In this document: positions 6,764 to 17,015 of the stretch, one piece after another
How the letters are laid out: each line of letters opens with the position of its first letter
Position numbering within the stretch: the first letter of the stretch is position 1
Program-made: the position numbers and the translations under genes
IMG/VR virus record: IMGVR_UViG_3300021959_000196
Span: 1-33,520 of that record
Strand: one strand, 5' to 3'
Length of the DNA: 33,520 nucleotides
From: a virus
The notes under the pieces: generated by a model
The model's database searches: none
Told to the model about the DNA's origin: nothing
The model's input: only the letters and a program-made list of their open reading frames with translations

Positions 6764-7024
6764 ATGGACGGAAGAAAAAACAACAAAGGGCACAAAGGAA
6801 AAGCAGGACGTAAAAGCAAGTCAGAAGAAATGCAACTGATTGAGATGCTAAACAAGCACATCGACAAAGATGAAGCTATCAAGGTATTGAAAGCAAAGAT
6901 AAACGAAGGAGACTTCAAAGCCTTGCAGTTGTATATGAACTATATGTACGGGAAGCCAAAAGAAACAAAAGACGTTACTGTAAACGCAGAGCAACCACTA
7001 TTTAACATAGACTTTAATGAATAA
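6764..7024 (+). CDS. terminase small subunit (candidate)
   Basis: This 86-residue basic protein begins MDGRKNNKGHKGKAGRKSKS, a glycine- and lysine-rich tail common at the front of Bacteroidota phage small terminases. It continues with short helices and ends KPKETKDVTVNAEQPLFNID. Small subunits bind the packaging site and load the large subunit. Immediate overlap (8 bases) with the large-subunit gene supports the call. The TTG at 6758 is in frame, but the ATG at 6764 is preferred. Confidence 0.65.
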   Translation: MDGRKNNKGHKGKAGRKSKSEEMQLIEMLNKHIDKDEAIKVLKAKINEGDFKALQLYMNYMYGKPKETKDVTVNAEQPLFNIDFNE

Positions 7025-8201
7025 CTCTAACATAGAGATAACGACTGCGCTTAAAAAGATTTTAAAAATACAAGAATTAGGAGGAAGAAAAAAAGTAATT
7101 CAAGGAGGAACATCAGCTTCTAAAACTTTCTCTATTCTTTTAGCGTTAATAAACCAAGCGACCAAAAATGATATGCTTGAAATCTCTGTTGTATCTGAAT
7201 CAATACCACATTTGCGTAGGGGTGCTATTAAGGACTTTCTTAAACTGATGATGATGACAGGAAGATATAGGGACAGTCATTGGAATAGGTCGTCTTTAAA
7301 GTACACATTCACAAACGGGTCATATATCGAGTTCTTTAGCGTAGAGCAACCCGATAAGCTGCGAGGTGCTAGACGTAATACCTTGTACATAAACGAAGCT
7401 AACAACGTACCATTTGAAGCCTACAACCAACTATCGATAAGAACGAGCGGAGATATATGGATTGACTTCAACCCTACTGCAAACTTTTGGGCGCATACCG
7501 AAGTAGTTGGAAACGACGATGCAGATTTTATTACACTTACATACCTAGACAACGAAGCGTTACCCGATACTATTGTGGCAGATATAGAATCAGCAAAGGA
7601 GAAGGCAAAAGAAAGCTCGTATTGGGCGAATTGGTGGAAGGTGTACGGATTAGGTCAAGTAGGTTCTTTGGAGGGCGTATGTATTACCGATTGGAAAGAA
7701 ATAGATTTGCCAACAGAAGCAAGGCTATTATGTTACGGAATGGACTTCGGGTATAGCAACGACCCAACTACGTTGATAGGTCTATACAAATACAACGATG
7801 CTTATATATTTGATGAGGTTATCTATCAAAAGAAAATGCTTAATAGTGATATATCAGACCTGTTCAAAGCAAAGGGAATTAAAGAAATAGTTTATGCAGA
7901 TTCAGCTGAACCGAAATCGATTGCAGAATTAAACACATACGGGCATCAAGTTCTTCCTTGCACCAAAGGAAAGGATTCGATAGTGTACGGGATTAACTTA
8001 ATAAACCAAAACAAAATCTTTGTTACTAGACGAAGCAAGAACCTAATCAAAGAACTACAATCCTATACGTGGCTAAAAGACAGAGAGGGCAACACGGTAA
8101 ACAAACCAATAGACGCCTTTAACCATTGTATTGATGCAGCACGCTACGCAATTACTTCACAACTAGAGAACCCGAACAAAGGGCAATACTTCGTTTATTA
8201 A
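7017..8201 (+). CDS. terL: terminase large subunit
   Basis: This 394-residue protein has both terminase domains. The ATPase part shows a Walker A-like loop GGTSASKT (30-37) and a Walker B strand LYINEANN (about 123-130). The nuclease part has the first catalytic Asp in GMDFGYSNDPT (D243), an acidic YADSAEP, and DAFNHCIDAARYA with the last metal-binding Asp (about 366-374). It pumps DNA into the prohead and cuts it. Length and motifs resemble PBSX/Terminase_3-type enzymes. A promoter-like box inside it (7805) lacks a -33 element and is not called. Confidence 0.93.
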   Translation: MNNSNIEITTALKKILKIQELGGRKKVIQGGTSASKTFSILLALINQATKNDMLEISVVSESIPHLRRGAIKDFLKLMMMTGRYRDSHWNRSSLKYTFTNGSYIEFFSVEQPDKLRGARRNTLYINEANNVPFEAYNQLSIRTSGDIWIDFNPTANFWAHTEVVGNDDADFITLTYLDNEALPDTIVADIESAKEKAKESSYWANWWKVYGLGQVGSLEGVCITDWKEIDLPTEARLLCYGMDFGYSNDPTTLIGLYKYNDAYIFDEVIYQKKMLNSDISDLFKAKGIKEIVYADSAEPKSIAELNTYGHQVLPCTKGKDSIVYGINLINQNKIFVTRRSKNLIKELQSYTWLKDREGNTVNKPIDAFNHCIDAARYAITSQLENPNKGQYFVY

Positions 8202-8707: not shown

Positions 8708-8938
8708 ATGCCTATCTCAAAAGAAATGCAGGACATTCTAGATATGTCTAAATGTCTGAAGAACGGAATCAAGGTCGAAGCTGTACCACAGGAACAGGTG
8801 CGATTTGGAAAGTGCAAGATACAGGTAACACGCAACGGAGTTACAAAACTAGGCGACCACTTGTACAGCCAAAAGAACGGAGAACTGAACGAGCAAATAA
8901 TTAAATTGTATAACCATTACGCAAAGCAATTAAAATGA
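8708..8938 (+). CDS. hypothetical protein, 76 aa
   Basis: A soluble, basic protein (MPISKEMQDILDMSKCLKNG...), with strands in the middle (VRFGKCKIQVTRNGVTKLGD) and a helical end. It starts one base after the previous stop and overlaps the chaperone gene by 4 bases (ATGA). It could be a head or tail accessory protein or an unrelated insertion. Confidence 0.55.
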   Translation: MPISKEMQDILDMSKCLKNGIKVEAVPQEQVRFGKCKIQVTRNGVTKLGDHLYSQKNGELNEQIIKLYNHYAKQLK

Positions 8939-9555
8939 AAATAGAGATAACAATCCCCGAAACTCTTGACGATATAACGCTAGAGCAATATCAAGTATTT
9001 AGCAAGATAGAGGAGCCAACGATAGACCAAACACTCACAACGTTCTTAAATATCTCACAGAAGGAACTCAATATGTTGCCTGCTGACAAAATAGAGGGAT
9101 TTGCTGAACAGATAAATTCAGTCTTTGAACAAGATAAGCAATTCACTCCTGCATTCATTTTAAATGGTGTTAAATACGGATTTATCCCAAAGTTGGATAG
9201 TATAACCTACGGAGAGAATAAAGACCTTACAACGTATCTAAATGACTTTGACAATATGCACAAGGCTATGGCTGTAATGTATCGACCTATCACTCACGAG
9301 CAAAGAGGTAAATATTTGATTGAGGATTACGAGGGTTCTGCCAAGTATTCGGAGGTAATGAAACAAGCACCTTTATCGGTTGTACTAGGTGCAACGGTTT
9401 TTTTTTACAATTTAACCAACGCATTGCTGAAAGCTATCCCGAACTATTTGGAGGAGGAACTTCAGAAGGAGTCAAAGGATTTGCTAAAAAGTGGGGAAAT
9501 TACGAAGAAGCAGTTGCACTCGCTGATGAGAAAGTTCAAAGAATTATCGGAGTAG
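8935..9555 (+). CDS. tail assembly chaperone, unshifted product
   Basis: This 206-residue zero-frame product is mostly helical: an N-terminal strand (KIEITIPETLDDITLEQYQV), acidic helical segments, then SVVLGATVFFYNLTNALLKA. It resembles the first of two tail assembly chaperones (gpG type), which bind the tape measure during tail building. Codon 155 onward sits on a run of nine T (9398-9406), and another frame is clearly coding beyond it. Unusually it lies about 14 kb from the tail tube gene and 6 kb upstream of the tape measure. Confidence 0.6.
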   Translation: MKIEITIPETLDDITLEQYQVFSKIEEPTIDQTLTTFLNISQKELNMLPADKIEGFAEQINSVFEQDKQFTPAFILNGVKYGFIPKLDSITYGENKDLTTYLNDFDNMHKAMAVMYRPITHEQRGKYLIEDYEGSAKYSEVMKQAPLSVVLGATVFFYNLTNALLKAIPNYLEEELQKESKDLLKSGEITKKQLHSLMRKFKELSE

Positions 9556-9668
9556 AAATAGGTACTCCTGTATCACGTTATCCTTTACACGCTTGCTATT
9601 TGTATCTAGCTTACTTAAAAGACAAGACAGAGTTCGAGAACAGAAAAATTAAAAAAAGTTTCACATAA
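8935..9668 (+). CDS. tail assembly chaperone, -1 frameshift fusion (predicted)
   Basis: Slipping back one base at T TTT TTT (9399-9405) joins 157 zero-frame residues to 87 new ones, giving about 244. The added part (LQFNQRIAESYPELFGGGTS, then GFAKKWGNYEEAVALADEKV, then HACYLYLAYLKDKTEFENRK) reads as a real domain and continues 113 bases past the zero-frame stop. It has no ATG of its own after the T-run. The KKW-Y...LA...ACYLYLAYLK pattern resembles the second chaperone part (gpT-like) of other Bacteroidota phages. The alternative is a wrong T count in the assembly. Confidence 0.6.
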
Positions 9669-10668: not shown

Positions 10669-11127
10669 ATGGCACAAGGATTTTACAATCTTACAGACAA
10701 GCTAAAAGACGAACTTTTAAAAGACCCGTTTGTCAATACAGTAACATACGGAAACATCTTTGAGGTTGATTTGAACAAGCAAACAATCTTCCCTTTATCT
10801 CACTTCATCGTAAACAACGTGGTCGATAGAGGTCAAACGCTTTTATTTAACATCTCTTTGCTTTGTATGGATTTGGTAGACGAATCTAAAGATGACACAG
10901 AGGACGAATTTGTCGGTAACGATAACGAGCAGGACGTTCTTAATACGCAGCTTGCAGTTGCCAATCGTGTTGGTGCTATGCTCAAACGTGGCGACCTGTA
11001 CAGAGAAAAATACCAACTAGACGGAGAAATATCTTTAGAGCCTTTTGTTGATAGATTCGATAACAAAGTAGCAGGTTGGACTGCGACCTTCAACGTAGTT
11101 ATTCCGAACGAGATAACAATATGCTAG
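10669..11127 (+). CDS. tail completion / terminator-like protein
   Basis: This 152-residue protein (MAQGFYNLTDKLKDELLKDP...) has the size and layout of a tail terminator: an N-terminal helix, several strands, an acidic loop (DESKDDTEDEFVGNDNEQD) and a final strand block (VAGWTATFNVVIPNE). I recognise it as a conserved Bacteroidota phage protein. Position just ahead of an HK97 gp10-like protein fits the neck/tail-end role of gpU or DUF3168 families. The family match is by layout, not by a diagnostic motif. Confidence 0.5.
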   Translation: MAQGFYNLTDKLKDELLKDPFVNTVTYGNIFEVDLNKQTIFPLSHFIVNNVVDRGQTLLFNISLLCMDLVDESKDDTEDEFVGNDNEQDVLNTQLAVANRVGAMLKRGDLYREKYQLDGEISLEPFVDRFDNKVAGWTATFNVVIPNEITIC

Positions 11128-11648
11128 AAACACAGAAAGCACTTCAGCGATTTGCTAAACACGTAGTTTCCCAATCACGTGCAAACCTCACTAGAGGTAA
11201 AAAGAGGGCTTCTAATGGACTTTATGATTCTATTGGGTATGACTTAAAGGTGCATAAACAATCGTTCAGCCTGTCGTTTATTATGGAGGAATATGGTATG
11301 TTTGTCGATAGAGGTGTGAGAGGTTCTAATCCAAACCTTGTGAAGAACGGAACGCAGAAAGGCGGAATGTCACCTTATTCATTCAAGCAAAAGATGCCAC
11401 CATTGAAATACATACTTCCGTGGGTCAAGTTAAAAAAATTAAGATTAAGGGACGAAAAAGGTAGATTCAAAAAAGGGAATTACAGAAGCATTGCGTTTAT
11501 GGTTCAGCGGTCTGTATTTGCGCAAGGAATTAAACCCACGATGTTTTTCACTAAACCATTTGCAAAAGCGTTTAGAAACCTTCCTAGCGAGTTGGTTGAA
11601 TCTTTTGGCTTGGACATAAAAGACTTTTTTGACTTTACACAAAAATAA
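11121..11648 (+). CDS. HK97 gp10-like neck protein
   Basis: This 175-residue basic protein starts with helices (MLETQKALQRFAKHVVSQSR), then shows YDSIGYDLKV, a sheet (SFSLSFIMEEYGMFVDRGVR) and a C-terminal basic part with KPTMFFTKPF. The YGMFVDRGVRG segment matches the YA.yvE.G.r region of gp10-like head-tail connectors. It overlaps the upstream gene (ATGCTAG). It likely helps join the head to the tail. Confidence 0.6.
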   Translation: MLETQKALQRFAKHVVSQSRANLTRGKKRASNGLYDSIGYDLKVHKQSFSLSFIMEEYGMFVDRGVRGSNPNLVKNGTQKGGMSPYSFKQKMPPLKYILPWVKLKKLRLRDEKGRFKKGNYRSIAFMVQRSVFAQGIKPTMFFTKPFAKAFRNLPSELVESFGLDIKDFFDFTQK

Positions 11649-15031: not shown

Positions 15032-15168
15032 TATTTAAGTTACTAAACAAATACGACTATTTCAACGAGTGCGAAGAAATAGAAATAGCAAAAGGGAAGA
15101 ACAGGCTTCCTTTGACGTTATCTGAAGGAATTAATCAAATGAACCGAAAAAGAAAATACAAGAAATGA
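15028..15168 (+). CDS. small protein between tail genes, 46 aa
   Basis: It overlaps both neighbours as ATGA, at 15028 and at 15165, so translation is probably coupled throughout. The product (MIFKLLNKYDYFNECEEIEI...) ends very basic (MNRKRKYKK). No family is recognised. Confidence 0.55.
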   Translation: MIFKLLNKYDYFNECEEIEIAKGKNRLPLTLSEGINQMNRKRKYKK

Positions 15169-17015
15169 TAAAAGAAACTATTATAATAGATGCCGAAACA
15201 GGCAAGGCAGAAAGTAGCGTTGATAAATTAGCCAAAGCTATTGAAAAGCTAACCGATTCAGTTGATGATTTAGGAAAGGAATCAAAGGAGAGCATTGACA
15301 ATATCGAAGAATCTGCCAAGAACACAGAAAAAGGTGTTAAGGGTATAGGGAAGGCTTTTAAAGGACTAGGTACAGCAATAAAAGCTGCGGGTATTGGTTT
15401 AGTTATTGGTGCATTAGCTACATTAAAAGAAGTTTTCGAGAGTAATCAAAAAGTTGCCGACCTTTTTAATACTGCTTTTGAAGCCACAAGCTTAATTTTT
15501 AATGATTTTGTTGATTTTATAGTAGATAACACTCAAACAGTTACAGACTTTTTTAAGGATGTTTTTGACAATCCTTTGGAGTCTGTTAAGTCTTTAGGCG
15601 ATGCAATTCAAGAAAACTTAATTGAAAGGTTTAATTCTGCTTTAGAGGTTTTTGGATTTGTAAGCGAAGCATTATCAAAACTTCTTGAAGGAGATTTTAA
15701 AGGTGCTTTGTCGTCTATAAAAGAAGCGGGTACTGAATTAGTCGATGTATTTACAGGTGTAGACGGAACTACTGAAAAAGTAGCCGAAGGTTTATCGAAA
15801 GTAGCAAGCGCAGCAGCGGACTACGGAAAAAAAATCGTAAAAAACGCAAAGGAAAACGTAAAACTGCAAAACGAAGCAGAACTTGCAACTGCACAGCAAT
15901 CTCGACTTGTAGAGCAATACGACAGACAAGCTGAAAAATTAAGACAGATAAGGGACAATGACCTTTTAACATTGAAGGAAAGAACTGCGGCAAACAATGA
16001 ACTTTTAGGGGTTTTAAATGCGCAAGAGGAAGCAATGCTAAAAGAAGCAGATGCTCAAGTAAAAGCGGCACAAGCGGCAGTTGATAAAAATGATAGCATA
16101 GAGAACCAAATAGCCTTGACCGAAGCACTAGCCAACAGGGAGGGAGTTCTTGCACAAATTGAGGGATTCAGAAGCGAACAAGAATCAAATAGGGTTGCTT
16201 TAAAAAAAGAGGAACTAGAACTAACTAATTCAATAACAGAAGCGGAAGGAGAAAGAAAAATATCACAACTTGAAGCAAATGCTGAACTTTTAACAAACGA
16301 ATACGCTAAACTACTAGCTTTAAGAGCGGCGGCAGATGAGGAAAAAAGAATACAAGAGGACTTACTAACCGCTAAAAGAGATTCGTATAAAAAAGGAACA
16401 CAAGCCTATAAAGATGCAGACAACGAACTCTTGGCTTTTCAACAAGAAAACACACAGAAAAAAAATGAATTAGACAGAGAGATTGAACTATCCAAAATAA
16501 ACGCTTTTGAAACCGCTGCTAATTTAGTAGGTGCTGAAACGGGTTTAGGTAGAGCGTTATTAGTAGCGAAGCAATTAATAGCTGCTAAAGAGTTAGCTAT
16601 TGAAGTAGGTAGAACAATAACTTTCTCAACACAAGCGGCTGCTCGTTCAGCGGTAGCCGTTGCAGAGGGTACTGCTCAAACTGCAAAGATTGGATTTCCT
16701 CAAAACATACCTATGTTAATCGGGTATGCTGCTCAAGCAGTTGGGATTATTGGCGCAATAAAATCAGCAACAAAAAAAGCAAAAGCACCTATAAAAACAC
16801 CAAGTGCTAGTAGTATTACAGCAAGTGTACAAAGTGCAGCACCAACAGCACCGCAATCTCCAAGCTTTAACATTGTAGGAAGTAGCGAAACGAACCAACT
16901 AGCCGAAGCGATAGGCTCACAATCACAACAGCCTATTAAGGCTTATGTAGTTTCCAACGATGTAACAACAGCGCAAGAGTTGGATAGGAACATTGTGGAA
17001 TCTGCTTCGCTATAA
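15165..17015 (+). CDS. tape measure protein
   Basis: This 616-residue protein is mostly long helix with Ala, Lys, Glu and Gln. Hydrophobic segments lie near residues 60-90 (GTAIKAAGIGLVIGALATLK) and 455-530 (NLVGAETGLGRALLVAKQLI and the stretch to about PMLIGYAAQAVGIIGAIKSA). An extended coiled coil lies between them, and the tail end is rich in Ser, Ala and Pro. This is the typical make-up of tape measures, which set tail length and enter the host envelope. By the usual 0.15 nm per residue this predicts a tail near 90 nm. No peptidase motif is visible. Confidence 0.82.
   Translation: MIKETIIIDAETGKAESSVDKLAKAIEKLTDSVDDLGKESKESIDNIEESAKNTEKGVKGIGKAFKGLGTAIKAAGIGLVIGALATLKEVFESNQKVADLFNTAFEATSLIFNDFVDFIVDNTQTVTDFFKDVFDNPLESVKSLGDAIQENLIERFNSALEVFGFVSEALSKLLEGDFKGALSSIKEAGTELVDVFTGVDGTTEKVAEGLSKVASAAADYGKKIVKNAKENVKLQNEAELATAQQSRLVEQYDRQAEKLRQIRDNDLLTLKERTAANNELLGVLNAQEEAMLKEADAQVKAAQAAVDKNDSIENQIALTEALANREGVLAQIEGFRSEQESNRVALKKEELELTNSITEAEGERKISQLEANAELLTNEYAKLLALRAAADEEKRIQEDLLTAKRDSYKKGTQAYKDADNELLAFQQENTQKKNELDREIELSKINAFETAANLVGAETGLGRALLVAKQLIAAKELAIEVGRTITFSTQAAARSAVAVAEGTAQTAKIGFPQNIPMLIGYAAQAVGIIGAIKSATKKAKAPIKTPSASSITASVQSAAPTAPQSPSFNIVGSSETNQLAEAIGSQSQQPIKAYVVSNDVTTAQELDRNIVESASL

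Follow-up and report, generated by a model that had tools for sequence, protein, structure and literature searches.

A gene lying next to the terminase in the window, the 33,520-nucleotide stretch of DNA that was analysed, was found to consist of two overlapping reading frames that meet at an unbroken run of T. The observation of the two frames in a -1 relation was confirmed, and comparison of the homologous sequences strongly supports a -1 frameshift whose product has two domains. A -1 slip of the ribosome on U_UUU_UUU probably makes the two products, which most likely correspond to a tail assembly chaperone of the gpG/gpGT type. The window is a stand-alone 33.5-kb record of a marine bacterial virus, and no close match to it was found among sequenced phages.

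The letters of the window agreed exactly with the first-pass annotation, which had read the nine T in the zero frame as GTT TTT TTT TAC, ended the zero frame at 9555 bp and left the -1 frame open to 9668 bp (Table 1). The open -1 frame runs for 87 codons, from the TTA at 9405 bp to the TAA at 9666 bp–9668 bp. Recalculation of the proposed product sizes again gave 206 aa and 244 aa; residues 1–157 of the short form are common to the fusion, which is completed by the -1 part (157 + 87 = 244 aa). The -1 frame had also been described as lacking an ATG after the run, and no ATG, GTG or TTG start codon was found in its first 30 codons. Four near-identical contigs from other metagenomes (L001–L004) carried nine T as well, so the run length is not a base-calling error.

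Table 1. Coordinates of the frameshift gene, its landmarks in the window and the two Nonlabens loci
Feature	Position (bp)	Strand	Details
Terminase large subunit, upstream landmark	7017–8201	+	Pfam PF17288, E=1.7e-18
Zero-frame product, gpG-like short form	8935–9555	+	206 aa, TAG stop
Slippery tract, nine T	9398–9406	+	T9 or T10 in all readable window-clade junctions
Proposed -1 slip site, in-register heptamer T_TTT_TTT	9399–9405	+	In register at all readable junctions
-1 frame extension, gpT-like part	9405–9668	+	87 aa, without its own start codon
Downstream neighbour, presumed tail-terminator-like	10669–11127	+	PHROG 30964; ~280 nt past the run in 404 loci
Downstream neighbour, presumed neck/tail-completion-like	11118–11648	+	PHROG 29822, E=1.1e-31; 352 loci
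Putative tape measure protein	15165–17015	+	PHROG 12706 (tail length tape measure), weak, E=2e-5
Nonlabens locus L084	13001–13695		JQ823122, gp38/gp39
Nonlabens locus L085	2001–2695		JQ823123, counterparts of gp38/gp39

A first search of IMG/VR returned 80 relatives that were about 49–99% identical, and later searches seeded with distant members raised the total above 500 junctions, a count that includes some contigs fetched twice. Both overlapping frames were kept in these >500 metagenomic viral loci and in two cultured Nonlabens phages. Wherever a contig covered the junction, the -1 part was homologous and stood in the same frame relation, which bears out the earlier impression that this frame resembles a conserved domain. 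As homologues of both parts occurred in the same -1 relation at every covered junction, the arrangement is far beyond chance. Among 69 representatives of the first sets, TTC was never used at the two phenylalanine codons of the run, against a background TTT usage of 73%. In close pairs, 46–71% of the substitutions before the run fell at the zero-frame third position. Across the 24 nt that follow the run, only 5% of changes fell at the zero-frame first position (the -1 second position), and this was the most conserved position from the first bases past the run onward. After the zero-frame stop, the close-pair substitutions made the -1 third position the most variable. Codon constraint passes from the zero frame to the -1 frame precisely where the T run lies, a pattern of substitutions which argues that translation of the -1 frame starts there. 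The conserved -1 residues F3, R6, Y11, L14 and W30 likewise start directly at the run.

The window's own clade comprised 433 junctions (162 once near copies were removed), all with a run of 9 or 10 T and never fewer or more. The run occupied three codon registers and the flanking codons varied. The commonest context was hTT TTT TTT Tnn; the others were hTT TTT TTT TTG/TTC, TTT TTT TTT TAC, TTT TTT TTT CTG, AGT TTT TTT TTG and AGT TTT TTT TTT. In a distant clade (~27% identity) most loci read CAG TTT TTT TTT ATC, and eight loci contained seven T only, as ACT, TCT, AGT or CAT followed by TTT TTT and an A. The codon before varied between these eight loci (Thr, Ser or His), with a third base that was always T, and on the distant-clade tree the difference between T7 and T9 required three changes. 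T_TTT_TTT in the zero-frame register was the only feature common to all readable junctions, and it is the slip site that had been proposed for the window; in the eight T7 loci the heptamer alone was sufficient. A heptamer of the X_XXY_YYZ form was therefore retained in the zero-frame register while the flanking codons changed, as is characteristic of -1 ribosomal frameshifting.

The best reading of the gene is a tail assembly chaperone of the gpG/gpGT type, as suggested by the two-product design, the conserved gene order and weak fold matches. As in that type, the second of the two overlapping frames has no start of its own and would be reached through a shift that occurs close to where the first ends, a conserved slippery site (T_TTT_TTT) lies at the overlap, and the gene stands upstream of the putative tape measure gene in the tail block on the same strand. 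We infer for such a chaperone that the shared part would hold the tape measure protein and that the added part would recruit tail tube subunits. Of the claim that this is a classic gpG/gpGT arrangement, the two-frame architecture stood and the chaperone role is likely. The profile search that had been suggested as a check was made with Pfam, NCBIfam and PHROGs, and scans of both parts returned no named function. The short form (8935 bp–9555 bp) matched PHROG 32199, which is of unknown function (E=6.6e-16), and sequence searches of the PDB gave nothing credible. The short form and the -1 part were structure-predicted separately. AlphaFold2 modelled the short form as an alpha/beta domain with a long C-terminal helix (pLDDT 84), and the model of the -1 part was all-helical (pLDDT 84). 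The best fold matches of the short form were Nonlabens gp38 and unnamed phage proteins; Foldseek also gave a weak match to a named tail assembly chaperone (E=0.029, TM 0.37), such families being very diverse. No fold match was found for the -1 domain. A search of the PDB for a related solved fold with Foldseek and VIA-align found none, a negative result that does not itself point to a new fold.

A weak fold match to the short form is probably gp10 of Flavobacterium phage 6H (L168, minus strand, 10352 bp–10927 bp). This protein of 191 aa, regarded as being of the same length, ends near CGA TGT TTT TTC TAT, and the stretch that separates gp10 from gp09 contains an open frame of ~100 codons that carries no annotation. 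Phage 6H gp10 was rejected as a comparator, as its -1 frame shuts two codons past the T_TTT_TTC-like site.

In 392 loci the terminase preceded the run. The two downstream neighbours, whose products are presumed to be tail-terminator-like (10669 bp–11127 bp) and neck/tail-completion-like (11118 bp–11648 bp), were followed in kept order by the gene that starts at 11,689 bp (214 loci) and the one that starts at 12,884 bp (85 loci); the start codon of the second neighbour is uncertain (11,076 bp or 11,118 bp). The putative tape measure gene is not adjacent to the frameshift gene, being ~5.5 kb from it, and its product aligned to its counterpart in Nonlabens, the tape measure-like gp49 (E=4e-8). 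The order of terminase, frameshift gene, two neck/terminator-like genes, others and tape measure was found in hundreds of loci and in the Nonlabens phages. The tail tube gene was identified by no search, and its positional candidate is 23,289 bp–23,843 bp. The gene had been called unusual for lying far from the tail tube gene; its distance from the presumed tube gene was upheld, whereas the order itself is standard in this group. Across 7017 bp–26,683 bp the structural genes of the window are in an unusual order, with the terminase, the putative chaperone and the tail genes first and then a protease (17,056 bp), a major capsid candidate (22,279 bp), the tube candidate (23,289 bp) and the portal (24,375 bp). 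Additionally, a 63-nt AT-rich sequence is present in three copies that are 70–76% identical (8204 bp–8266 bp, 9643 bp–9705 bp and 10,230 bp–10,292 bp), the second of which has its start at the 3′ end of the -1 frame. These copies hold GGTTTTATATTTG, which resembles the Bacteroidota promoter form (TTTG, then TAnnTTTG).

Homopolymers are mutable and error-prone, and a sequencing error, a pseudogene or a phase-variable tract could in principle produce two frames at a run of T. We consider this extremely improbable, as the same frames were seen in independent contigs from many metagenomes and a search across all >500 junctions for fused frames found not one; the case raised in the first-pass annotation, in which 8 or 10 T would simply fuse the frames, was seen at no locus. 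It is also very improbable that these are two separate genes with an incidental overlap, the second part being made by a restart of translation near the first stop. The Nonlabens phages are annotated in this way (gp38 and gp39, with TAATG), yet only 5/433 window-clade loci had an ATG among the 40 codons with which the -1 frame opens, and this frame is conserved from the run itself onward. A relative with its own start for the second part had been named as a finding that would speak against the shift; the ATG of gp39 is such a start, but it does not refute the shift, as 26 codons of the conserved -1 domain precede it and the T9 next to it is intact. Very likely, the public Nonlabens annotation splits one frameshifted gene. 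A real frameshift in another structural factor with two forms, for example a neck or terminator partner, is unlikely, although no named family was matched, the fold matches are weak and the gene adjoins the terminase several genes ahead of the putative tape measure rather than directly before it. Against it, the weak fold match bears the name of tail assembly chaperone. As is established for long-tailed phages, genes ahead of the tape measure that give two products by a -1 shift nearly always encode the chaperone, which also counts against another structural factor.

Ribosomal slippage would give two proteins from one start: most ribosomes would stay in the zero frame and release the 206-aa protein, and a minority would slip back one base on U_UUU_UUU (9399 bp–9405 bp) and read to 9668 bp, giving a 244-aa fusion that carries the added helical domain and has LGATVFFLQFNQR as the predicted peptide across its junction. 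We infer both that the slip is ribosomal and how often it happens. A hairpin or pseudoknot that acts as a downstream stimulator is common in -1 frameshifting and is not obligatory. Neither of the two clades, when searched, showed a conserved 3′ RNA structure of this kind, and a pseudoknot-free test gave no folding excess (mean z ~0 for the main clade, -0.9 to +0.2 for the distant clade). Programmed transcriptional slippage, in which RNA polymerase would stutter on the nine T so that some mRNAs with ten U encode the fusion, alone or together with ribosomal slippage, is less probable. In its favour are the missing 3′ stimulator and the 9 or 10 T of all window-clade junctions despite three registers and changing flanks, a run that never falls below nine T and so is longer than the heptamer requires. 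Predictions of transcriptional slippage in bacteria have used a length of nine A or T (PMC1088944), and in E. coli reporters the length of a poly-A run was correlated with frameshift efficiency (PMC3711429). In the other ORFs of L001–L448, runs of at least nine A were five- to six-fold rarer than expected from codon shuffles (10 seen, 57 expected), and the drop from eight to nine A was abrupt, as in slippage-prone genomes. T runs were depleted too, but this was already so at seven T, and at least 3 of the 5 T9 runs counted in related loci were the chaperone gene itself. Given the nine-T minimum, the lack of a 3′ structure and the depletion of A/T runs, polymerase slippage may be a helper or the main route in the window clade. 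As the +1 frame was shut within two codons of the run in >400/433 loci, mRNAs one U short would yield only a truncated short form. However, a register-independent run of at least about nine A or T, which holds in the window clade, fails in the eight distant relatives with seven T in the exact ribosomal register. Moreover, some register changes look like displacement of the whole run via flanking indels, which would keep nine T by descent, and a preference for hydrophobic residues can account for part of the flanking T's. That RNA polymerase slipping on an obligatory tract of 9–10 T, perhaps along with the ribosome, is the main source of the chaperone fusion in the window clade we regard as doubtful; no report of such a route for tail assembly chaperones was found in the literature searched. 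For the family, ribosomal slippage is favoured over transcriptional slippage because the T7 loci, with their fixed third T, match U_UUU_UUU and not slippage by the polymerase.

The principle is already textbook (lambda G/GT); what is new is the family, the very strict all-T site and the lack of annotation. No prior report of the family was found in literature on tail chaperones with Bacteroidetes/Flavobacterium frameshift or polymerase slippage. The analysis makes a comparative case for a frameshifted tail chaperone in a phage group that is large, mostly uncultured and probably hosted by Bacteroidota, and in which neither part has a functional name, and explains the split gene of the cultured Nonlabens phages. 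Additionally, T7, T9 and T10 in different registers form a clean natural series that could separate ribosomal from transcriptional slippage in hosts poorly studied for recoding.

The slip site of lambda is the mixed heptamer G_GGA_AAG, whereas that of the window family is all U (9–10 T in the DNA). No detectable sequence relation exists between the window gene and lambda gpG/gpGT or the HK97-type chaperones and, unlike these, it adjoins the terminase, with several genes between it and the putative tape measure and at a long distance from the presumed tube gene. A published account covers lambda G/GT and how widely this system occurs among long-tailed phages (PMC5009743). Shigella mxiE and spa13 and IS elements, which use programmed transcriptional slippage, likewise have a long unbroken A/T run and a longer product from another frame; in contrast to these, the window family always has the heptamer in register and some distant relatives have only T7. 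Among the known systems, gp38/gp39 of Nonlabens phage P12024S and their counterparts in P12024L (JQ823122 and JQ823123) showed 26% identity to the window in the first part. Their junction, CTT TTT TTT TAT, has nine T and an open homologous -1 frame, and the gene order is the same as in the window. They differ from it in that their -1 frame contains an ATG 26 codons in and that they are annotated as two hypothetical genes.
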